A DNA stretch of 44,411 nucleotides from an uncultured Alphaproteobacteria bacterium (GTDB lineage: Bacteria; Pseudomonadota; Alphaproteobacteria; HIMB59): contig CABXXO010000004.1 of assembly GCA_902516235.1 (NCBI GenBank), positions 1 to 44,411 of the forward strand, written 5' to 3'. The notes under the pieces were generated by a model that was given only the letters and a program-made list of their open reading frames with translations, made no database searches and had not been told where the DNA came from. This document shows positions 15,164 to 35,925 of the stretch, piece by piece. Within the stretch, counting starts at the first letter, position 1, and each line of letters starts with the position of its first letter. The position numbers and the translations under genes were made by a program.

Positions 15164-15240
15164 GCGCTCTTAGCTCAGCTGGATAGAGCATCTGCCTTCT
15201 AAGCAGAGGGTCGCAGGTTCGAATCCTGCAGAGCGCGCCA
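15164..15240 (+). tRNA. tRNA-Arg (anticodon TCT), CCA encoded; integration site (attL in its 3' half)
   Basis: Cloverleaf gcgctcttagctcagctggatagagcatctgccttctaagcagagggtcgcaggttcgaatcctgcagagcgcgcca; anticodon loop ct-tct-aa. Confidence 0.96.
15195..15240 (+). repeat. attL direct repeat (46 bp, within tRNA-Arg)
   Basis: ccttctaagcagagggtcgcaggttcgaatcctgcagagcgcgcca, identical to 24049-24094. Confidence 0.95.
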
Positions 15241-15332
15241 TCCAAAAGATAATTACAAGTTTAAAAAACTAAATCGCTTCAAACTAATTTGAGATTTTAT
15301 CCCCAAAAGTAAGGGTCAACCAATTGACTAGT

Positions 15333-15408
15333 CTGTGTACCTTTTGTTAGCGTTTGTTTATGAGAATCTATTTAAATTTGTTTCGTAGGGTACACATAGG
15401 GTACACAG
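15333..15408 (+). promoter_or_regulatory. Left candidate integrase arm-site module
   Basis: ctgtgtacc (15333-15341, inverted) plus gggtacaca (15388) and gggtacacag (15399) spaced exactly 11 bp; same layout recurs at 23914-23990. Confidence 0.6.
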
Positions 15409-15553
15409 AGATATTTACCCACCCCCATTGTGTCTTTGACAATTACAATGGAAGTGATTTCAACCCACGACAATTTTTCCTAAAGGCTAAAAAACATTCT
15501 CAAGCAATCACAAACCTTTTGAAAGCGAGACAATAATCGAAAGGAAACATAAA

Positions 15554-16828
15554 ATGCAAAAAATAATATTCAATAAAACCAATATAGAATCCCTAGAGAC
15601 CCCAATTAAAAGATCTAGGGTATATTCTACTGAGATAGAGGGATTGTTCTGTGAGACCTTTAAATCTGGAATTAAAACCTTCCGTGTTCAGTATAAGTTA
15701 AACAACTTAAAATATACTTTCACAATAGGTCGATATCCTAGTATTCATCCAAGTTTTGCTATTACAAAAGCAAAGGAAGTTAAAAGGTTAGTAGCAGAAG
15801 GTGAAAATCCACAACTAGCTAAATCAGAAAATAGAAAAGAACCTACATTTAGAGATTATTATCTAAGAGAATATATTCCTCTAAAGATTTCTACTTATGA
15901 GGATCATAAAGATGTTAAAGCTTATTTTGATAATAATACTTCACTACAGAATATTTATAGAATTAGATATTCCAACAAAGTAGGGAAGGGATTAGAAACT
16001 TTAGTACAGAATTATAATTCTACTCTCAGATCTCATAGTTTCTGCAATAAGAGGATGGTAGATATATCACCTCTAGATATTCAAAAACTATTTTTAGATA
16101 TTTCCAAAAAACAAACTGCTAATCAATTAATGAGACAGTTAAGAAATGTATTTGAGTTCTATAATCCCTCTAATAACCCTGTCAAACTTGCCCTAAAGAA
16201 GTACATAAAACTCCATGTAAGCAATGAGAGAACACGAAAAGCGACTGAGCAAGAGTTAATGAGATTGGGTAATGCACTCAATAAAATAGAAAGTGGGTTC
16301 TTAATGGATAATGGGTTCTATTATCAACCCCAAAAAACCCAAGCAATAATTATTCGTGTTTGTTTATACGAAGGTTTAAGACCTAATGAAATCTATTCAA
16401 TGAAGTGGGAAGAGATTGAAAGCTCTAGATATCAAACTCTTTCTAAAACGGGTTTAATAGAAACTGAACTAACTTCACAAACTCTTAAAGAATTAGAGAA
16501 GTTAAATAGAAATACTGTTTATGTGTTTGAAGGTAGAAAACCAAATACACATATCAAATCTATCAGAAAAACTTGGCATAAGGCTTGTGAGTTAGCAGAT
16601 ATAACTGACCTTGAACTATATGACTTAAGAAAAACATTTTCCTCTAAAGCTACACAAACCTTTGGAGTGTTTAATAGTTCTAAACTAACGAACCATAAAT
16701 CATCTAAAGTAGTAGAGAAACATTACTCTCATTTGGACAGTGGAGAAACTAAAGAGAAAAAGGATCAGATAGCTGAAAGGTTTAATAACCTCCTCAATGG
16801 TGGTGGAAAGGTAATCAACCTTGGGTAA
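15554..16828 (+). CDS. int: Tyrosine recombinase/integrase (N-terminal arm-binding domain type)
   Basis: SGIKTFRVQYKLNNLKYTFTIGRYPSIHPSFAITKAKEVKRLVAEGENP (arm-binding/DUF4102-like), catalytic-domain segments RVCLYEGLRPNEIYSMKWEEI, LYDLRKTFSSKA, HYSHLD; lies next to attL. Confidence 0.95.
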   Translation: MQKIIFNKTNIESLETPIKRSRVYSTEIEGLFCETFKSGIKTFRVQYKLNNLKYTFTIGRYPSIHPSFAITKAKEVKRLVAEGENPQLAKSENRKEPTFRDYYLREYIPLKISTYEDHKDVKAYFDNNTSLQNIYRIRYSNKVGKGLETLVQNYNSTLRSHSFCNKRMVDISPLDIQKLFLDISKKQTANQLMRQLRNVFEFYNPSNNPVKLALKKYIKLHVSNERTRKATEQELMRLGNALNKIESGFLMDNGFYYQPQKTQAIIIRVCLYEGLRPNEIYSMKWEEIESSRYQTLSKTGLIETELTSQTLKELEKLNRNTVYVFEGRKPNTHIKSIRKTWHKACELADITDLELYDLRKTFSSKATQTFGVFNSSKLTNHKSSKVVEKHYSHLDSGETKEKKDQIAERFNNLLNGGGKVINLG

Positions 16829-17582
16829 GATACTTAAATTTGATAGGGGAGTTGAAGAAGCTCCCCTAGGTTTAACACATCATAGATCTCATTACGCTAG
16901 TACAATTAAATTGTTTGAGATGTTTAAGTTTTATAGATACATCAAACAGACAAATCCAAATCCTAGCTTAGATAATCGACCAGATCTTTTTGTTAAAGAG
17001 AAACATAAAATAAAGTTTCTTCATTTAGCATGGGAATACGAATACTTAGATCTAATTTATTCTCAAAATACGAGACCTTTTTCAAATGAAGAATTAAATT
17101 ACATAATACCAAAACTAAAAAGAATTAAAAAAGATATAGACGATATTGAGAAGTTAATGAAAGACAAACTTGATAATAAAAATAATTCTAAACCTAAAAA
17201 AACTCTTGGAAATTTATCTACATTTACAATTGATGAGAGTAGAAAAGAGTTACTATCTACAAAAAGATTATCATTCATCTTGGAAAGAGAAGCTAAAGGA
17301 GATTTAATAAAACAAAAAAAGAACAGACCTAGAGAGGCATTATCCCTTGTATATGCAGTTCAAATATTAAAAGAGATATATAATTGCCTTGATATTAAAC
17401 AAGAGTGGAAAACATTTATTCACCAAGAAATACTTAAATTACCATCACTATCTGAGTTAAAATATATAACTATTGAAACTGCTATAAAGAAATCAAAAGG
17501 TAAAGCTTTTCAGGATCAATGGCTTAGATCTGCTAGAGATGAGGGTGAATTTGAGAATATCCGCAAATTCATTTTGGGCTAA
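16821..17582 (+). CDS. Hypothetical protein coupled to integrase
   Basis: Overlaps int by 8 bp (TTG start); long open frame, charged/coiled sequence; no recognised family. Confidence 0.7.
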   Translation: MGKILKFDRGVEEAPLGLTHHRSHYASTIKLFEMFKFYRYIKQTNPNPSLDNRPDLFVKEKHKIKFLHLAWEYEYLDLIYSQNTRPFSNEELNYIIPKLKRIKKDIDDIEKLMKDKLDNKNNSKPKKTLGNLSTFTIDESRKELLSTKRLSFILEREAKGDLIKQKKNRPREALSLVYAVQILKEIYNCLDIKQEWKTFIHQEILKLPSLSELKYITIETAIKKSKGKAFQDQWLRSARDEGEFENIRKFILG

Positions 17583-17610
17583 TTAATTTTTAAATCTTTT
17601 TTACTTAATT

Positions 17611-18357
17611 TTAATCTAAAATTCCTAAATTATTCAAATTATATTGCGCATTGTACATTTTCATTGTGTGAGGAATGTAAATCTCCATCATAGAATAATC
17701 ACAACCTTCTTTTTCAATAATCTTGGTAGTGTCAATTTCACTTTGAATAGCTAAATATTCAATTTTTTTTGTTTGGTTTTCATTTAATAGGTTTTCTCTA
17801 AACGCTGCATCTAAAGTACTCATCAAAATATATTTCCCATCGTGTTCTTTATGTTCTTCTTTACACATAGACATAATTTTGTTGATTGCATATCCAGATA
17901 CAATAAAGTTTTTTATATTTATAAAGATCTCATCTTCACTTACTTCTAAACTTTCAAGGTCTTTTTCTTTATTATCCTCTATTCTGTTAGTAAGTAATTC
18001 ACATTGATAATAAATAAAATTGTAAATCCTCTCACCATTGTCTAAAGCAAATCTTTCAGAAATTGTAATTTTTAAATTATTCTTATTCAGTTCACCAATA
18101 CCTCCTGTATACCACCCTAAACTATTGAATTTGATGAATTCATCTGAAATTGAAATGATATCTGAATATTTTACGGTTAAACCATCAGAAAAAATATTTT
18201 CCAAGGTTTTTTTTTCTAAGTCAAAGATATAGGTTTCATAAATACCAGTCTCAGAAAATGCTCCTTTGTTTTCACTTAACATCTCACAATTATAAACAAT
18301 TTCGTTACCCCAACTCAAACTAGGGATTAATAACAATAGAGCTAAGAGGGTTTTCAT
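17611..18357 (-). CDS. Secreted hypothetical protein
   Basis: Signal peptide MKTLLALLLLIPSLSWG; no recognised domain. Confidence 0.75.
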   Translation of the reverse strand: MKTLLALLLLIPSLSWGNEIVYNCEMLSENKGAFSETGIYETYIFDLEKKTLENIFSDGLTVKYSDIISISDEFIKFNSLGWYTGGIGELNKNNLKITISERFALDNGERIYNFIYYQCELLTNRIEDNKEKDLESLEVSEDEIFINIKNFIVSGYAINKIMSMCKEEHKEHDGKYILMSTLDAAFRENLLNENQTKKIEYLAIQSEIDTTKIIEKEGCDYSMMEIYIPHTMKMYNAQYNLNNLGILD

Positions 18358-18687
18358 TTAATCACATTTTGCAACTATATTGAGTTCTGAAAATTCATTT
18401 TGTGATGGAAAATATTTAAAGTCAAATGGATTACCTTTTGTTTCACCACTATTACTTGATTTAAATGTGGCTATTCCTTTTACTAAATCATCATCAGACG
18501 AGTAAATATGAACATCATAAATTATATCTTGACCTTTATATCTGTATCTAATGGTTCCAAAATTAAAAGATATATTTAAACTTAAATCATAAATTGAATT
18601 TCCACTTTCGGATACACACTGGGTCATATAATTTTTTCCCCAACTCAAACTAGGAGCTAATAATAAGATAGCCAAGAATATTTTCAT
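18358..18687 (-). CDS. Secreted hypothetical protein with a signal peptide near-identical to its neighbour
   Basis: MKIFLAILLLAPSLSWG; abuts the next gene with 0-nt spacing. Confidence 0.7.
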   Translation of the reverse strand: MKIFLAILLLAPSLSWGKNYMTQCVSESGNSIYDLSLNISFNFGTIRYRYKGQDIIYDVHIYSSDDDLVKGIATFKSSNSGETKGNPFDFKYFPSQNEFSELNIVAKCD

Positions 18688-18753
18688 AAATTAATTTTAT
18701 AAAATATTTCGCATATTTGCATGTCTTCATTGACATCTAATTCATCTAAATAA

Positions 18754-18900
18754 CTAAATATCTTTAGATTTATCAATCTTAGGTATTTTTTCTTTTTTTA
18801 TTGGTCTGATATTTCTTCCGAATATTATTACTGTTTTATACTTAAGTTTGACTAAATCCTCAGGCTTTCTAACAATTATAGACTTAATAATTTTAACCAT
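18754..18900 (-). CDS. Small hypothetical protein (48 aa) MVKIIKSIIVRKPEDLVKLKYKTVIIFGRNIRPIKKEKIPKIDKSKDI
   Basis: Complete ORF read from the sequence, below the track cutoff; start overlaps the end of 18893-19078. Confidence 0.45.
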   Translation of the reverse strand: MVKIIKSIIVRKPEDLVKLKYKTVIIFGRNIRPIKKEKIPKIDKSKDI

Positions 18901-19078
18901 TTTTACTATCCTTTGGTTTATTGGCAGAATTAAAAAACTTTTTAAGTTTTTGATTAGGTAATGGTTTTTGATGAAATTGAATATAAGAGCGATGAATAGG
19001 TATTCCTAGTTCTCTTATTTCTTTTAGAGTTAATTTTTTCATTGGCATTGTTAACCTCCTTTGGTTTAAACAAGGCAA
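18893..19078 (-). CDS. Small hypothetical protein (61 aa or shorter)
   Basis: Open frame with internal ATG candidates (MPMKKLTLKEIRELGIPIH...); tandem with 18754-18900. Confidence 0.4.
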   Translation of the reverse strand: MPCLNQRRLTMPMKKLTLKEIRELGIPIHRSYIQFHQKPLPNQKLKKFFNSANKPKDSKNG

Positions 19079-19173
19079 CTAATGGGGAAATTTAATATTC
19101 ACCGTTTTAGCTGCATTTATATAGCACCCGCAATATTGTGTAAGTAAATCGGTGCTGATTATAAGATAAGTTA

Positions 19174-20670
19174 TTAACTAAATATTGTCAATAGCACTAC
19201 AGCTATCAGAGCTACAATAACCAATCCTTTAAGATTTTTTATTAGAAGAGTTTGTTCTTTTAATTGAATCTCTATATTTCTAAGATTTCTAATTCTCTCC
19301 AATATTTTATCTTGTAATTCTGCATTAAATCTAATTTGCTTGGCAACCCAATATTTCACTTTCAAATTTTCTTGTTCTGATTGCTCAGTTGAGTCTTTAA
19401 TTTTTGAAAACAAAACTGTCTCAACTAATTTAGAGTTTTTATCTATTTCTTTTATCAACTCTTCTTCATCTAAATTCCTGTCATAAGAATCATCAGTATT
19501 AAATAAAGTTGGAGCCTCTTGCCTTAGCGTTGTTTTTTTATAATTATATTTATTGTCTAACCATTCATTATTAGTTTTATTTTTATACTCAATAAATAAA
19601 TCTGCTGTTTCATTCTCTTTTTCATCTCTTCTTAAATAGAATTTATGGTTATCAATAGCGGCCTCAATAAATAAATCTTTATCTTTATTATAATATTGTT
19701 TAATTGACTCCAATGTAGGTTTATAAACCCGATAATATCCATATCTTAAATGCTTATCTTCATTTGTTCTAAAATAATTCCAAATCCCTTCATTGTGTTC
19801 GTTATCCTCACAAATTTTAAAACTAAGTAATTCTCTAAGACTATTTATGTCTTTCTCTAAACCAAAATATTCAGAGTATTTTTTTTCCTTATCCTTATCG
19901 TATTCAGGTTTGTATTTCCATTTATTGAAGATTGAATTGATAGATTCTGTTGATGGTTTAACAACTTTATAAGCTATCCGTTCATATAAGATCGTCAGAA
20001 TAGCAACATGTGTATCATTTGAAGGGCTTAAATGTTTGAGTAAAGCCCATGGTGCATCTTCTGCTTTTCCTCTTTCATACCAAGACCACCCATCCTCAGC
20101 ATTACCAAAATTATCATATTTTATTGAGCCAAACAGACCATCTACTTCGCTCTTAATGTTATTATTCCATGAAATATATCTTAATATTTCTATCCATCTG
20201 TCATCAGATAATTCTTTATATGGACCTTCATTATTTCTATAAAATATGCGTTTTAAATCTGTTAGTTGAAAGCACTCATTTCGAAAATAACTCTCTAAAT
20301 GTTTTAGTGGAGCATTAGATAAAAAAATTTTAAAAGAATTCTCATCGAAGAAAGTCTCATCTTTGTGCTGAAGCATAAACGGCTTAATAAATTGATTAGA
20401 TAAAACTAAATGTTTAGCTGAGTCATTAGAAGCAAAATAAATAAGTTTTAGACTATCACTATCTCTAACGACTTTAGCTAATGCTAAATTAATCAAATCA
20501 TTTTTTTTCCCAAGACAATACTTAATTGTATCTTCAGGAATAAGTAAGTTTTTGTTTAACTTATAATCAGAATTATCATCCAATGAGATAATTTCTTTAT
20601 AAATGTCATCAACTTTTAACTTCGAAATAAAACTTTTTGAAACATGTGGGTTTAATATAATTTTATTCAT
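19174..20670 (-). CDS. Large cargo protein of unknown function with C-terminal TM helix
   Basis: 498 aa, soluble-looking body ending NLKGLVIVALIAVVLLTIFS; TAATG overlap with upstream gene. Confidence 0.75.
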   Translation of the reverse strand: MNKIILNPHVSKSFISKLKVDDIYKEIISLDDNSDYKLNKNLLIPEDTIKYCLGKKNDLINLALAKVVRDSDSLKLIYFASNDSAKHLVLSNQFIKPFMLQHKDETFFDENSFKIFLSNAPLKHLESYFRNECFQLTDLKRIFYRNNEGPYKELSDDRWIEILRYISWNNNIKSEVDGLFGSIKYDNFGNAEDGWSWYERGKAEDAPWALLKHLSPSNDTHVAILTILYERIAYKVVKPSTESINSIFNKWKYKPEYDKDKEKKYSEYFGLEKDINSLRELLSFKICEDNEHNEGIWNYFRTNEDKHLRYGYYRVYKPTLESIKQYYNKDKDLFIEAAIDNHKFYLRRDEKENETADLFIEYKNKTNNEWLDNKYNYKKTTLRQEAPTLFNTDDSYDRNLDEEELIKEIDKNSKLVETVLFSKIKDSTEQSEQENLKVKYWVAKQIRFNAELQDKILERIRNLRNIEIQLKEQTLLIKNLKGLVIVALIAVVLLTIFS

Positions 20671-21152
20671 TAATTCTCAAAAGCTTTAATCATATATGCA
20701 TCTTTATAACGATAATGTTTGTTATTATGAAACAGCTCTTTCGTGTAATTAATTCCATAGAGTTGAATATAATCTTCAAAATTATTTGAAATAAAATCTG
20801 AATCTTCAATTTTTTGTATTTGTCTAAATGAACGATAATTATGATAATAATCTTTCATATCTTGTTTTGTTTGTTCATTAAAATAATTAAGTATTGTCTC
20901 TGTAATATCTACTTTTTTACCTTCATCTAGTAAATTTTTATGATCCTCGATTTGATTAATTGTTAAATCTTCTTTTTTAATAGTTATTTGTACTTCCCAG
21001 TCTACTGATGGAATTTCTAGTGGCTCCTGCAGATGTTCTGTATGATTATTAAATTTTTCAATCATGATAAAATTACCGTTGAACTTAAATCCATACTCAA
21101 CCATGTGATCATTATCTCCTTCAGCAAAAAATAAGTTTAACTTTGATGACAT
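20670..21152 (-). CDS. Hypothetical protein, partner of 19174-20670
   Basis: 160-aa ORF with TAATG stop/start coupling to the 498-aa gene. Confidence 0.7.
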   Translation of the reverse strand: MSSKLNLFFAEGDNDHMVEYGFKFNGNFIMIEKFNNHTEHLQEPLEIPSVDWEVQITIKKEDLTINQIEDHKNLLDEGKKVDITETILNYFNEQTKQDMKDYYHNYRSFRQIQKIEDSDFISNNFEDYIQLYGINYTKELFHNNKHYRYKDAYMIKAFEN

Positions 21153-21160
21153 AATTTAAA

Positions 21161-21448
21161 TTAATCCAATTTTAATACAGTCTCTCCCTCATTAGGAAGA
21201 GGGTTTTTTTGAATTTCTAACTCCTCTAAATAGTCCTCTTGTCCAAGGCGTAAAGCATTTAAATCCATAGCAACATCAGCAATATTTTTATCTAGTGTCT
21301 CTTGTTTTTGTTTCCAGATTTTTTCCTCAAACTTATAAACTAAGTAATTTTGAATATTAAATTTTCCATAAACTAGGTGATAGGCTAAATAACAAATAAC
21401 AAGTATAAAAAAGATATTTACTATCATACTTGCTTTAAAGAGTTTCAT
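21161..21448 (-). CDS. Small membrane-anchored hypothetical protein
   Basis: N-terminal TM (MIVNIFFILVICYLAYHLVYG) followed by charged coiled segment. Confidence 0.6.
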   Translation of the reverse strand: MKLFKASMIVNIFFILVICYLAYHLVYGKFNIQNYLVYKFEEKIWKQKQETLDKNIADVAMDLNALRLGQEDYLEELEIQKNPLPNEGETVLKLD

Positions 21449-21466
21449 TTTAAGATTTGATTTATT

Positions 21467-21679
21467 TTAAACATCATTTAATTCAAATATTTTTTTTGTG
21501 CATGCATGTGCTTCTTTGTTTATTTTATTATATATAGGTGACGGTGGATAACCCAAAGGAGCTTTCATTAATTTTCTATAATACCTGTTCCATATTTTTT
21601 TAATTATAAACAGATTGTAAGGACTCAATTTATTTAATTCAGAGTCATTTATCGGACAATTAAACTCATATTTTCCCAT
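21467..21679 (-). CDS. Small hypothetical protein
   Basis: 70-aa ORF in a tight same-strand operon. Confidence 0.5.
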   Translation of the reverse strand: MGKYEFNCPINDSELNKLSPYNLFIIKKIWNRYYRKLMKAPLGYPPSPIYNKINKEAHACTKKIFELNDV

Positions 21680-21682
21680 TAA

Positions 21683-21862
21683 CTAATGATAACCAACATA
21701 GTCAATATTCTCAATATAGATTTCTCTTCTACAATCTAAGCAAATATGGACTTCTATATGTTTCCATTTCTCTAAAACATCAGAAGCTTCACCACATTTC
21801 TCACATTTTCTTTGTTGTGGTTTTAACTCTTTCTCATCAAATTCACCGTTCCACCAACCCAT
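21683..21862 (-). CDS. Small zinc-ribbon protein
   Basis: MGWWNGEFDEKELKPQQRKCEKCGEASDVLEKWKHIEVHICLDCRREIYIENIDYVGYH; CxxC...CxxC; start at 21862 gives TAATG overlap with the upstream gene (the track start at 21904 is probably too early). Confidence 0.65.
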   Translation of the reverse strand: MGWWNGEFDEKELKPQQRKCEKCGEASDVLEKWKHIEVHICLDCRREIYIENIDYVGYH

Positions 21863-22095
21863 TATTCTTGAATCTTTATCCTTCCTGCTGATACACCTGC
21901 ACATTTAAAGTGGTCAGTATGATCACAAATTATTACTGGTAATGGTGAGTCCATTAATATTCTTTCTTGCATATCGACATAATTGTGGTCTGCATTTGCT
22001 TTAGGTGGAAAATCCTTAAAAGCATTTAGAAATAATCCTAATGCTATTGCCCCTAATAATAGTTTTACTGATAGTTCTAATTTAATTGTCTTCAT
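21862..22095 (-). CDS. Small secreted or membrane-anchored hypothetical protein
   Basis: MKTIKLELSVKLLLGAIALGLFLNAF hydrophobic N-terminus. Confidence 0.6.
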   Translation of the reverse strand: MKTIKLELSVKLLLGAIALGLFLNAFKDFPPKANADHNYVDMQERILMDSPLPVIICDHTDHFKCAGVSAGRIKIQE

Positions 22096-22185
22096 TTTTA
22101 CCCCTTTTGTTTATTTTTATCAAAGTTCTAAACTACCTCCAAGATAGGGGGGATTTATTCTGTGAATAATTTGCATAATATAATT

Positions 22186-22431
22186 ATGACAACAGACTTA
22201 TATCAATCCCTCATTGAGGGTGATGACATTTCTTCTAAGAAACATAAAGATGATTATCTTACTGAGAAGGAAGTCGCAAAAGAATATCCAATATATACAT
22301 CAAATTCACTAAGGTTTTACAGATCTACAAATAGATCTTTATTTCCTTTTCATAAGATTGGAAGAAAGGTTCTTTACAAAAGAGAAGATATAGAAAATGC
22401 CCTGGCTAGTAGTAGGGTGGTTCAACAATGA
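22186..22431 (+). CDS. AlpA/excisionase-like HTH DNA-binding protein
   Basis: DYLTEKEVAKEYPIYTSNSLRFYRSTNRSLFPFHKIGRKVLYKREDIENAL pattern (MerR/AlpA-like HTH_17); preferred ATG at 22186; track start is 22162. Confidence 0.8.
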   Translation: MTTDLYQSLIEGDDISSKKHKDDYLTEKEVAKEYPIYTSNSLRFYRSTNRSLFPFHKIGRKVLYKREDIENALASSRVVQQ

Positions 22432-22556
22432 GTGAAATCCTTAAAGAACTAGAGAAGATCAGAGAGCTCTCAGATAATCTTATTGGTTATATTCAAGCAA
22501 TAGATGAAAATAATTATTCCGAATATCTAACAAAAGGAAATCAAGTGAGTGAATAA
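22428..22556 (+). CDS. 42-aa protein MSEILKELEKIRELSDNLIGYIQAIDENNYSEYLTKGNQVSE
   Basis: ATGA overlap with the AlpA-like gene and TAATG overlap with the replication gene: translationally coupled trio. Confidence 0.6.
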   Translation: MSEILKELEKIRELSDNLIGYIQAIDENNYSEYLTKGNQVSE

Positions 22557-23401
22557 TGAAGAAACTTCCCTTTCTCCACCTAGCGACATCTGATGAAGTC
22601 GCTTCCACTCACTTGTTAACTCCATATGAAGTAGGTTGTGTTTGGAAGCTTAGATTACAACTTTGGGAAAATAATAGCATACCTCTTAAAGACGATGATA
22701 GTTATTTAGCAAAGATTTGTAATACTACTCCAAAAAAATTTAGATCCGCTAGAGTTAACTTTGATTATCTTTTTGAGAAAGAAAATGGAAAAATTTTTCA
22801 TATTTCTGACAAAGAGAAATGGGATCATGCATTGAATAAGTCTAAGGTTCTCACTAATAATGCAAACATTCGTTGGAATAATGATAATGCAAATGCAATA
22901 GAAATGGATAAGGAATTAGAACCAAAATTAAAACAAGAAGTAGAATTAAAACAAATAGATAAGGAAAATGAAACAAGGTTCGATAAAGCTCTTTGGAATA
23001 AAACTATGGCTACTTTTAAAGGGGAGTGGGATCAACTCCAATACAAAAGAGGGAGCTTGGTTCAAGCGGTAAAGAATTATTTATCAATCATTGATGACCC
23101 AAACTTAGAGATACCTAGTATCGAACAGTTATTTATCCTCTACAAAGAACATCAAAAACAGTATTTAGATCAACCTAAATATATAACTTCCCTTGATAAG
23201 TGGATCAGTAACTATAAGTGGTTAGAAGATACTTCGTTTAACATTCAACAAAACCTTATAGAACAGAGTGAAGCTGATTTCCAAGAGCAACAAGATAAAA
23301 AAGATTGGGAATTTGCAAAAAAAATAGGTTTTTGGTTGCCTGCTTACAGTGCTGAGAGAATTAATAGATGTGAACGAAAGTACGGATCTATTACTGACTA
23401 A
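22556..23401 (+). CDS. DUF1376-like (YdaU-type) phage replication protein
   Basis: LPFLHLATSDEVASTHLLTPYEVGCVWKLRLQLWENNSIPLKDDDSYLAKICNTTPKKFRSARVNFDYLFEKENGKIFH matches DUF1376 layout; C-terminal replisome-organiser-like segment. Confidence 0.75.
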   Translation: MKKLPFLHLATSDEVASTHLLTPYEVGCVWKLRLQLWENNSIPLKDDDSYLAKICNTTPKKFRSARVNFDYLFEKENGKIFHISDKEKWDHALNKSKVLTNNANIRWNNDNANAIEMDKELEPKLKQEVELKQIDKENETRFDKALWNKTMATFKGEWDQLQYKRGSLVQAVKNYLSIIDDPNLEIPSIEQLFILYKEHQKQYLDQPKYITSLDKWISNYKWLEDTSFNIQQNLIEQSEADFQEQQDKKDWEFAKKIGFWLPAYSAERINRCERKYGSITD

Positions 23402-23505
23402 CAATAATTATTATCTAAATGTTATGAAATTAATCGAAATCTATACGAATTTAAATTAATTATGGCGAAAATATTACAAAAGAATGATTAAAATTAATAA
23501 TAATA

Positions 23506-23829
23506 TTATTTTGGGTAATCACTTAGTTCACCCCTTGAGTAAGCCCCACAAATAGTTTCTTTAGCTTCTATGGAACCTGATCTATTGGAGTCGTGCATTC
23601 CTGTTTTTTTATGTAATTTAGTCATCTGTCCGTAACATTTAGAATATTTGTCGCTATCACCGATATTACTGTTACTACTTGACTGAGACTGTGTAGTTGA
23701 GGTATTAGAATTTGAATAATTTTTTTTTGATTTTTTTTCATCATCTTCTGGAAAAATCAATCCATAAATAGCACCAATAACCATAAAAATAACAAAAAGA
23801 ATAAAAAGTTTATTTTTAAGACTTCCCAT
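23506..23829 (-). CDS. Membrane-anchored/secreted small protein with an EF-hand-like loop
   Basis: N-terminal TM, Ser/Asn-rich linker, then loop DSNRSGSIEAKE (23557-23592). Confidence 0.65.
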   Translation of the reverse strand: MGSLKNKLFILFVIFMVIGAIYGLIFPEDDEKKSKKNYSNSNTSTTQSQSSSNSNIGDSDKYSKCYGQMTKLHKKTGMHDSNRSGSIEAKETICGAYSRGELSDYPK

Positions 23830-23913
23830 TTTATTAATTTTTTTCTTATTAAAACCTATTTCATAAAGTTTTTTTGGTCAAATTATTTTTGCATAATGAA
23901 TAACTTAACAATT

Positions 23914-23990
23914 CTGTGTACCCAAATGTATTGTAATGTTAGTTAAGTTTAGTATTTATATAATAAGAAAGGTACACATGAGGTAAACAG
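23914..23990 (+). promoter_or_regulatory. Right candidate integrase arm-site module
   Basis: ctgtgtaccc (23914-23923), aggtacaca (23970) and aggtaaacag (23981), doublet spacing 11 bp; mirrors 15333-15408. Confidence 0.6.
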
Positions 23991-24048
23991 AATAGGGTAT
24001 ATCTCTATAGTTGTTGAGTTATGTTGTCTTTTGAAACAAGCACTCATT

Positions 24049-24094
24049 CCTTCTAAGCAGAGGGTCGCAGGTTCGAATCCTGCAGAGCGCGCCA
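24049..24094 (+). repeat. attR direct repeat (46-bp tRNA-Arg 3' fragment)
   Basis: Identical to 15195-15240; no 5' half of a tRNA upstream. Confidence 0.95.
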
Positions 24095-31295: not shown

Positions 31296-34318
<3,023 letters not shown>

Positions 34319-34357
34319 TGGACTGGCTAATAAGTGGCGTAAAATATAGAAAAAAAA

Positions 34358-34440
34358 CTTACACACTTCTTACACACTTTTCAAAATCGTTCCATTTTTC
34401 AACATATTTAAAATCTATCTTACACAAAACTTACACATTT
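34358..34440 (+). promoter_or_regulatory. Left arm-site-like repeats of the guaA mini-element
   Basis: Tandem cttacacactt x2 (34358-34379) and cttacacaaaa/cttacacattt (34419-34440), 11-bp spacing in both pairs. Confidence 0.65.
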
Positions 34441-34500
34441 CTGATACTACTCCAAATCATAAGTTGAAAACATAATAAAAAATTGAGATATTTTTAATAA

Positions 34501-34602
34501 ATGCCTCAATGTCCAAAATGTAATATCAATGCTTTTCACAATAATGTGTGTAACAGATGTGGTTATATTGAAAAAAAAATGAAGTTAAAACTTCAGAAAT
34601 AA
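34501..34602 (+). CDS. Short zinc-ribbon ORF, probable 5' part of a frame-disrupted gene
   Basis: MPQCPKCNINAFHNNVCNRCGYIEKKMKLKLQK; followed in the -1 frame, across A9, by an open frame continuing into 34641-34868. Confidence 0.5.
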   Translation: MPQCPKCNINAFHNNVCNRCGYIEKKMKLKLQK

Positions 34603-34640
34603 CAATTAATGAAAATGAACATAAGGAGAAAAAGATAGAA

Positions 34641-34868
34641 ATGAATGGAAATGAAAATACCCACACGCCAAAATCTGAAAATAATAATTTGATAACTTGT
34701 CCAGACTGTAAAAAAGAAATTTCCCGTAATGCCGAAGCCTGCCCTCATTGTGGAGCGAGATTAAAAACATCATTTTTATATAAATTTATAAAATGGGGAC
34801 TTATTATTGGGGCTATATTTTTTGTTTTTCAAATTATACTTGCTATAGTTGCCTTTAATACAATTTAA
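34641..34868 (+). CDS. Zinc-ribbon protein with C-terminal TM helix
   Basis: CPDCKKEISRNAEACPHCGARL then FIKWGLIIGAIFFVFQIILAIVAF; purine-rich aaggag upstream. Confidence 0.7.
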   Translation: MNGNENTHTPKSENNNLITCPDCKKEISRNAEACPHCGARLKTSFLYKFIKWGLIIGAIFFVFQIILAIVAFNTI

Positions 34869-34967
34869 AAATATTTATTTTAACAAGTATTATAAAAAAG
34901 GTTCAAATAAAGGGATAAAGTTATGTTCGAATGTGCTTTATAAAAACTTTGTCTTTTTATGAGACAA

Positions 34968-34992
34968 TAAACTTACACAATGTGTAAGTTTA
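34968..34992. repeat. Near-perfect palindrome built from the TTACACA motif
   Basis: taaacttacaca-a-tgtgtaagttta (12-bp arms, 1-nt spacer). Confidence 0.8.
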
Positions 34993-35046
34993 AATTTAAA
35001 TGTCTATATTTTATAATACCAATCAATTTTAAAAATGAGATTTAAT

Positions 35047-35068
35047 CTTACACAAAACTTACACACTT
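35047..35068 (+). promoter_or_regulatory. Right arm-site-like doublet of the guaA mini-element
   Basis: cttacacaaaa/cttacacactt with 11-bp spacing. Confidence 0.65.
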
Positions 35069-35114
35069 CTAAAATGGGTGGTAGAATGATTGGCTTACAA
35101 TGTTAATTTCATCA

Positions 35115-35131
35115 TCTACTATTGAGTGGGA
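35115..35131 (+). repeat. attR-like 17-bp direct repeat
   Basis: tctactattgagtggga followed by ataa, so the duplicated guaA tail gaa-taa is still encoded. Confidence 0.85.
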
Positions 35132-35139
35132 ATAAATAA

Positions 35140-35925
35140 TTGAAAATTCCTATCTACCAAGTTGATGCTTTTGCATCAAAAATTTTCAAAGGAAATCCCG
35201 CAGCTGTATGCCCTTTAAAAGAATGGTTACCTGATCAAATAATGCAAAATATAGCTATGGAGAATAATTTATCAGAAACGGCATTCTACATAGAAGAGGG
35301 AGACAAATATTATATAAGGTGGTTCACTCCTAAAGCTGAGCTAGATTTAGCTGGCCACCCGACTTTAGCAACTGCTCATATTTTAATAAATGAATATAAA
35401 ACTAAGATTAGATCATTGATTTTCAAAACAAAAATAGGTGATACCTTAAATGTTTCTATTAATAGAAATCTTTATCTAATGGACTTTCCTTCAAGGCCGC
35501 CAAAAGCTGTTAAAGCGACATCTGATATTTTTGAAGCATTAGGAAAAACTCCTATTGAACTGTTAGCACATAGAGACCTAATAGCAGTATTTGAAAATCA
35601 AAATGATATTAAATATATGAAGCCAGATTTAGAAAAATTAAAGAAACTTAATTACCCTTCTGTTGTAATTACAGCAAAAGGAGATGAGTCAGATTTTGTT
35701 TCAAGGAATTTTGCTCCAAAATTAGGCATCCCTGAAGATCCTGTAACAGGCTCCTCTCATTGTGAATTAATTCCATATTGGTCAAAAAAACTCAATAAAA
35801 AAGAGATGATTGCTCTTCAAATTTCTGAAAGAGGTGGAAAAGTTCATTGCACAGATATGAATGATAGAGTTCTCATAGGGGGAGAAGCAATAACTTTTTT
35901 TAGAGGTGAAATTGAACTAGCCTAA
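35140..35925 (+). CDS. PhzF family isomerase-like protein
   Basis: YQVDAFASKIFKGNPAAVCPL, NLSETAFY, AELDLAGHPTLATAHIL, EDPVTGSSHCELIPYW. Confidence 0.9.
   Translation: MKIPIYQVDAFASKIFKGNPAAVCPLKEWLPDQIMQNIAMENNLSETAFYIEEGDKYYIRWFTPKAELDLAGHPTLATAHILINEYKTKIRSLIFKTKIGDTLNVSINRNLYLMDFPSRPPKAVKATSDIFEALGKTPIELLAHRDLIAVFENQNDIKYMKPDLEKLKKLNYPSVVITAKGDESDFVSRNFAPKLGIPEDPVTGSSHCELIPYWSKKLNKKEMIALQISERGGKVHCTDMNDRVLIGGEAITFFRGEIELA

Follow-up and report, generated by a model that had tools for sequence, protein, structure and literature searches.

A putative non-autonomous integrative element at the 3′ end of guaA and its one-gene relatives in the order HIMB59

Introduction

Tn5801-like elements use an 11-bp core in guaA together with a tyrosine integrase (PMC4844618), and the GIsul2 integrase excises and inserts the integrase-less CR2-sul2 units at guaA via the core GAGTGGGA (PMC9376610). 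Elements without integration genes have also been described elsewhere: CIMEs are described as decay products accreted beside functional elements (PMC5704250), Dehalococcoides carries ssrA islands that lack an integration module (PMC3146451), and "Ca. Methylopumilus" has additive flexible genomic islands of 330 bp to 42 kb at tRNA-Lys (PMC10872708). Streamlined ocean bacteria swap accessory genes, yet few mobile elements have been recognised there. The main text of a paper on HIMB59 islands mentions no integrases, GMP synthase or insertions (PMC10734472), and our literature search found no paper on guaA units of HIMB59. Here we analyse a segment at the 3′ end of guaA in this order, together with its counterparts in related genomes.

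Results

Core repeats, arm sites and cargo of the window element

The window, that is, the whole 44,411-nt stretch of DNA analysed here, comes from a 1.02 Mb draft genome that is 69% complete; the features described below lie on the forward strand unless stated otherwise. The target gene is guaA (32780–34318; Pfam GATase and GMP_synt_C), which encodes GMP synthase, has a full-length identity of 90–98% within the genus, and offers its 3′ end as the attachment site. A first-pass annotation had reported a 17-bp repeat of this gene end 817 bp downstream, and exact copies of the 17-mer TCTACTATTGAGTGGGA indeed lie at both borders, at 34298–34314 (left core repeat, attL, which includes GAGTGGGA) and 35115–35131 (right core repeat, attR), with a start-to-start distance of 817 and 800 bp enclosed between the direct repeats. 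The window holds no third copy, even allowing three mismatches, and the chance expectation of the 17-mer under a dinucleotide model is ~6e-8 per kb downstream. Both core copies encode ...STIEWE-stop (GAG TAG on the left, GAA TAA on the right), as had been annotated for each junction.

The motif CTTACACA occurs eight times in 834 bp on both strands, against 0.022 expected under the dinucleotide model. Its pairs form the arm-site-like doublets that had been noted inside each repeat: left arm doublet 1 (CTTACACActtCTTACACA, 11-bp pitch; 34358–34376) lies 43 bp from the core, and the right arm doublet (35047–35065), which is common to all ACTTACACA-type units with one arm lost or degenerate in some, lies 49 bp from it. 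To these we add left arm doublet 2 (CTTACACAaaaCTTACACA; 34419–34437) and a palindromic arm pair, CTTACACA-A-TGTGTAAG (34972–34988, no strand assigned), which is present in genome G016 too. All arm sites were recognised solely by pattern, recurrence and geometry.

The ORFs between the repeats encode no recombinase or integrase. The cargo includes a 75-aa ORF with a zinc ribbon and a transmembrane segment (34641–34868; Pfam Zn_ribbon_3, E=1.6e-6), which matches PHROG 14275, a group with no known function (E=1.3e-9). Upstream of it, offset at an A9 run, is a 33-aa zinc-ribbon frame (MPQCPKC...CNRCGY; 34501–34602; weak Zn-ribbon matches) that is probably the 5′ part of the cargo gene. Of the original description of the interior, the lack of a recombinase stands, and the statement that it holds only a zinc-ribbon/TM protein is refined by this second zinc-ribbon frame preceding the 75-aa ORF. 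Judged by its reading frames, the cargo would be two ORFs or else one double zinc-ribbon/TM protein with a frameshift; the split at the A9 run may have arisen during sequencing or amplification or may be true decay, and the frame break may mean that the window copy is decaying. Known phages gave no real match to the window element.

Empty and filled sites at guaA

We compared the regions downstream of guaA in 41 genomes of the genus. The first-pass annotation had proposed a search for sites in which guaA runs straight into phzF, and six relatives have this arrangement (G031, G039, G011, G019, G037, and G020), with guaA ending in ...STIEWE* and phzF following 5 bp on. The guaA end at these empty sites reads ...TCTACTATTGA(G/A)TGGGA-ATAA, with small variations in the core. 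In the window, the guaA flank and the phzF-like gene (35140–35925; Pfam PhzC-PhzF) are kept apart by exactly one repeat plus the element. Compared with G031, G039, and G011, the window is 93.6–93.9% identical in guaA and 95.0–95.7% identical over the 700 nt downstream; the difference therefore represents either a clean insertion or a precise excision. The repeat was also found to bound further insertions at homologous loci, and the proposed search for larger guaA elements with shared ends yielded one of 1.2 kb in G016, which carries an FkbM methyltransferase gene between CTTACACA ends. Of the features of tyrosine-integrase elements at the guaA 3′ end, the window element has the border repeat and an empty attB in relatives, and it encodes no integrase of its own. 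Across the order, the 3′ end of guaA is a hotspot for insertions. Taken together, the empty sites, the shared ends, and the bounding repeats support the initial reading of this segment as a non-autonomous integrative element and not random intergenic DNA.

The interval between guaA and an aminotransferase gene is a general variable region of the clade, in which TPR-sulfotransferase, FG-GAP, and acyltransferase-like genes vary among genomes across the genus. Displaced guaA 3′ ends lie downstream of intact guaA at two loci, L054 (G034; ~2 kb downstream, preceded by an FG-GAP repeat gene) and L197 (G128; C2:2431–2622). They comprise 35 and 64 codons at ~60% amino acid identity and resemble the traces of earlier insertions in which more of the guaA end was replaced.

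Other one-gene units with the same right end

Four further integrase-less units with the same right end as the window element are located at guaA. A 515-bp unit with a single 142-aa gene of unassigned function sits directly after guaA in ~16 genomes of the genus; the ATG of its gene overlaps the guaA stop (ATGA), and CTTACACAaaaCTTACACA, a conserved stretch, and the core follow. This site is filled in G026 and G047, where the unit precedes an ABM-like gene, and empty in G004, G040, and G044, where the ABM-like gene follows directly. At guaA in G016, a 1,216-bp element with the FkbM methyltransferase gene precedes the 515-bp unit in tandem. The unit of G014 (447 bp) carries a DUF6150-like gene in reverse orientation, and that of G131, a genome of another family, is 279 bp long and encodes a 64-aa protein; the sequence downstream of it is 98% identical to that of the empty G089 and G091. 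The 515-bp and 279-bp units have arms at the 3′ side only.

A right end of ~68 bp is conserved across the window, 515-bp, G016, G014, and G131 units. Searched against 162 genomes of the order, a profile of it gave 22 strong matches (E<1e-18), every one at guaA; in these genomes, the doublet pattern in its exact form is likewise found nowhere else. Compared with the G016 element, the conserved left end of the window element (34315–34480) is 76% identical over 165 bp; its conserved right end (34890–35131) is 84–87% identical, with 84% over 232 bp that include the palindrome. Their interiors encode unrelated proteins and reach 65% in a forced alignment. A further 1.1-kb element at guaA in G109 encodes a hexapeptide acyltransferase and no integrase, and its arms are CTTACAAAG. 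The left-arm doublets are at +40/+51 and +101/+113 in G109, at +39/+50 and +100/+111 in the window, and at +38/+49 and +100/+111 in G016; such equal geometry with different arm sequence would be expected of sites for related integrases that differ in arm specificity.

The 142-aa cargo has no match in phages or viral contigs; other Alphaproteobacteria have distant relatives of it (~30%) that are named in neither Pfam nor NCBIfam, and its AlphaFold prediction has a pLDDT of 40. Five genomes (G082, G123, G143, G061, and G144) contain an eroded 279-bp unit in which the gene is kept and the right arms and core are gone; its frame is broken in at least one of them, a case of decay in place.

Transfer between families and position of the crossover

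The 515-bp unit was also found in two genomes of another family. Between G120, one such genome from a different GTDB family, and G033, the unit is 99.4% identical at the DNA level, as against 69.6% for the final 297 nt of guaA. Between G026 and G018, the units are identical and guaA is 92.3% identical. The flanks of the unit in G120, which are the guaA of this same genome on one side and downstream sequence of the genome's family on the other, make assembly contamination unlikely. By this comparison, the sister 515-bp unit has moved between GTDB families, and recently. G120, G117, and G131 have the host's GGNACNATTGARTGGGA as left core and TCTACTATTGAGTNGNA as right core; in full, the host core of G120 is GGTACAATTGAGTGGGA and its right core TCTACTATTGAGTGGGA. 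A host-type left core with a different right core places the crossover inside the shared ATTGAGTGGGA.

Search for a helper recombinase

A Pfam search found no tyrosine recombinase near guaA in 52 genomes of the genus. Likewise, no integrase ORF was found downstream of guaA at 107 loci of the order with a custom profile able to detect the integrase of the window, a weaker test since it covered stretches of up to ~12 kb, many of which end at contig edges. Carriers in the genus have Xer-type recombinases and, in some, also tRNA-associated or unassigned ones; the non-Xer recombinases lie mostly beside tRNA genes, and none has the CTTACACA doublet. G016, which holds two units in a genome 78% complete, has just two Xer-sized recombinase genes. 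Neither a guaA-specific integrase nor an integrase-bearing version of the units was found in the order, and no parent element (ICE or IME) in the 162 genomes; as the genomes are drafts, 50–99% complete, a guaA-specific integrase could be missed.

Two resident genes were considered and rejected. The P4-type integrase of the window sits in a tRNA-Arg island whose att region has no CTTACACA arms. This complete-looking island (15164–24090) occupies the tRNA-Arg(TCT) gene and comprises the integrase (15554–16828; phrog_1), a small MerR/AlpA-like ORF recognised by eye (22162–22431), nine other tested ORFs without a PHROG match, and, from 24049, a repeat of the tRNA 3′ part that spans at least 30 bp; it could be a phage-satellite-like element. 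The other gene, a 265-aa Xer-like gene of G038, is syntenic and adjoins an accA-like gene (identities by eye). Its homologues in G007 (L329) and G026 (L330) each consist of two overlapping frames, split at similar positions, and the G038 homologue of this split Xer-type gene has an altered end; the split may reflect an assembly error, decay, or frameshifting.

Viral contigs gave no match to the arm-plus-core pattern, nor to a stricter pattern. When inspected, the 36 matches to a looser pattern seemed to be unrelated sequence that recurs, and only one of these contigs has an integrase, far from the match. CTTACACANNACTTACACA is present in 25 viral contigs, of which only one, L115 (IMGVR_UViG_3300033463_001550, 1–2000), has a tyrosine recombinase; there, CTTACACAaaaCTTACACA flanks a tRNA-like core beside the 361-aa recombinase gene. 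This contig, whose search for relatives returned itself alone, is an independent hint, and a weak lead, that CTTACACAaaaCTTACACA may serve as integrase arm sites.

Discussion

The 817-bp segment is very probably a non-autonomous integrative element on which a guaA-specific tyrosine integrase acts in trans. At the level of sequence, the insertion is precise, ends are shared, cargo is exchanged, and the arm geometry is kept; the sister unit has passed between families, and the unit contains no recombinase. In the mechanism that we propose, the guaA-specific integrase, presumably of the tyrosine class, would be supplied in trans by a phage, a plasmid, or an island away from guaA. A putative circular form with core and arm sites would recombine with the guaA 3′ end inside ATTGAGTGGGA, which would duplicate the core and restore the coding end of guaA. 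The element itself would consist of attachment-site ends and one cargo gene for a small zinc-ribbon/membrane protein; the same ends carry other cargo in relatives, and units accrete in tandem at the guaA-proximal position. The system may be active at present, and the cargo may have a role of its own.

The first-pass annotation had left open whether the segment was mobilised in trans or a fixed remnant. For the family as a whole, mobilisation in trans is favoured, because the sister unit is 99.4% identical between families whose guaA is 69.6% identical; for the window copy, mobility stays putative. That the element is an immobile remnant of a former integrase-bearing island, which lost its genes and became fixed (the decay route to a CIME), is improbable. 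The cargo frame of the window broken at the A-run, the eroded right ends of some 67-aa units in a second family, and the description of CIMEs as arising by decay (PMC5704250) would all suit such a remnant. However, close relatives are without the window element, independent loci combine common ends with different cargo, and the sister unit moved recently between families; moreover, intact-ended single-gene units of 279–1216 bp recur, an outcome that random decay of large islands would not produce again and again. A duplication of the guaA end, or an exchange of flexible DNA through homologous recombination, with no site-specific step in either case, would fit the high variability of the guaA-aminotransferase interval, but G120 carries a near-identical unit in differing flanks (guaA at 69.6%, other downstream genes) that share no more than the 11–17 bp core, and we give this explanation almost no credence.

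The nature of the recombinase admits two further readings. The host XerC/XerD could perform the insertion, as in integrative elements that exploit Xer: XerC/XerD-type genes are the tyrosine recombinases most generally common to carriers, and no integrase is encoded by the element. The core, however, is unlike the general dif consensus, from which the dif of this clade may differ, and Xer sites are not known to have doublet arms, so we regard Xer as a very improbable agent. The units without left arms might instead be integron-like cassettes, with guaA as the receiving site, the 3′ arm-plus-core as the cassette site, and expression from guaA. Their ORF right after the guaA stop, their 3′-only arms, the tandem arrays, and an integrase located elsewhere resemble such cassettes, but the folded palindromes of an integron attC contrast with the direct-repeat doublets of the putative arms, a conserved gene end serves as the core, the window element is armed on both sides, and no IntI was found in a search of the general PF00589 family; we consider integron-like cassettes doubtful. 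Returning to an integrase acting in trans, a broader version can be put forward tentatively: HIMB59 as an order might possess a gene-cassette system without a resident integrase, in which the 3′ end of guaA serves everywhere as the receiving site, cargo carries a 3′ (or two-sided) tyrosine-integrase att module with the usual geometry, several integrases that differ in arm specificity (ACTTACACA, ACTTACAAAGT) come from passing phages or plasmids, and cassettes without left arms are expressed by coupling to guaA.

If confirmed, units of ~280–1,200 bp bring single genes to the end of one essential gene across families. Recombinase-less elements of such size slip past integrase-based island finders, and the same features (a gene-end repeat plus arm doublets, and no integrase) would provide a search rule for other genomes. 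With these units, it also becomes possible to test whether att-flanked elements that are not autonomous are left by decay or form an evolved class of parasitic or cassette-like nature.

Among described systems, Tn5801-like and other guaA islands share the target, the 11-bp core, and the tyrosine integrase, but are autonomous, ~25 kb in size, and encode their integrase (PMC4844618). Integron cassettes resemble the units in pairing a single promoterless ORF with a recombination site at its 3′ side, in forming arrays at one receiving site, and in relying on an integrase elsewhere; they differ in site architecture, since in place of an attC with folded palindromic arms the right end appears as a direct-repeat doublet plus the guaA end, and neither IntI (general PF00589 search) nor attC was identified in the HIMB59 units. 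The additive islands of "Ca. Methylopumilus" likewise occur in streamlined aquatic bacteria, repeat the last ~20 bp of the target gene, and include units down to one gene, but their target is a tRNA gene instead of guaA, and HIMB59 adds arm sites, empty sites, and transfer between families (PMC10872708). CIMEs and the Dehalococcoides ssrA islands are att-flanked, lack integrase and transfer genes, and accrete in tandem at one gene end (PMC5704250, PMC3146451), and the window element, which keeps attL and attR and has no integration or transfer genes, agrees with the definition of a CIME. CIMEs, however, are described as decay products beside functional elements (PMC5704250), whereas in HIMB59 one set of ends carries varied cargo and the order yielded no functional partner; shared ends with exchanged cargo, together with recent transfer, argue for more than decay. 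The CR2-sul2 units are integrase-less, lie between att sites of the guaA 3′ end with the core GAGTGGGA, a core of the GIsul2-type att system that is present at the guaA end in the window, and have tandem att copies and an integrase from another element (PMC9376610). They are larger and resistance-bearing, with an ISCR-type transposase gene of their own and a known integrase in an adjacent island (PMC9376610), whereas each HIMB59 unit has one gene and no integrase was found. On this evidence, the window element would work in the manner of the CR2-sul2 units, which the GIsul2 integrase moves. Att-flanked non-autonomous elements are already known as CIMEs and additive flexible islands, and the guaA units of HIMB59 are a variant of them.
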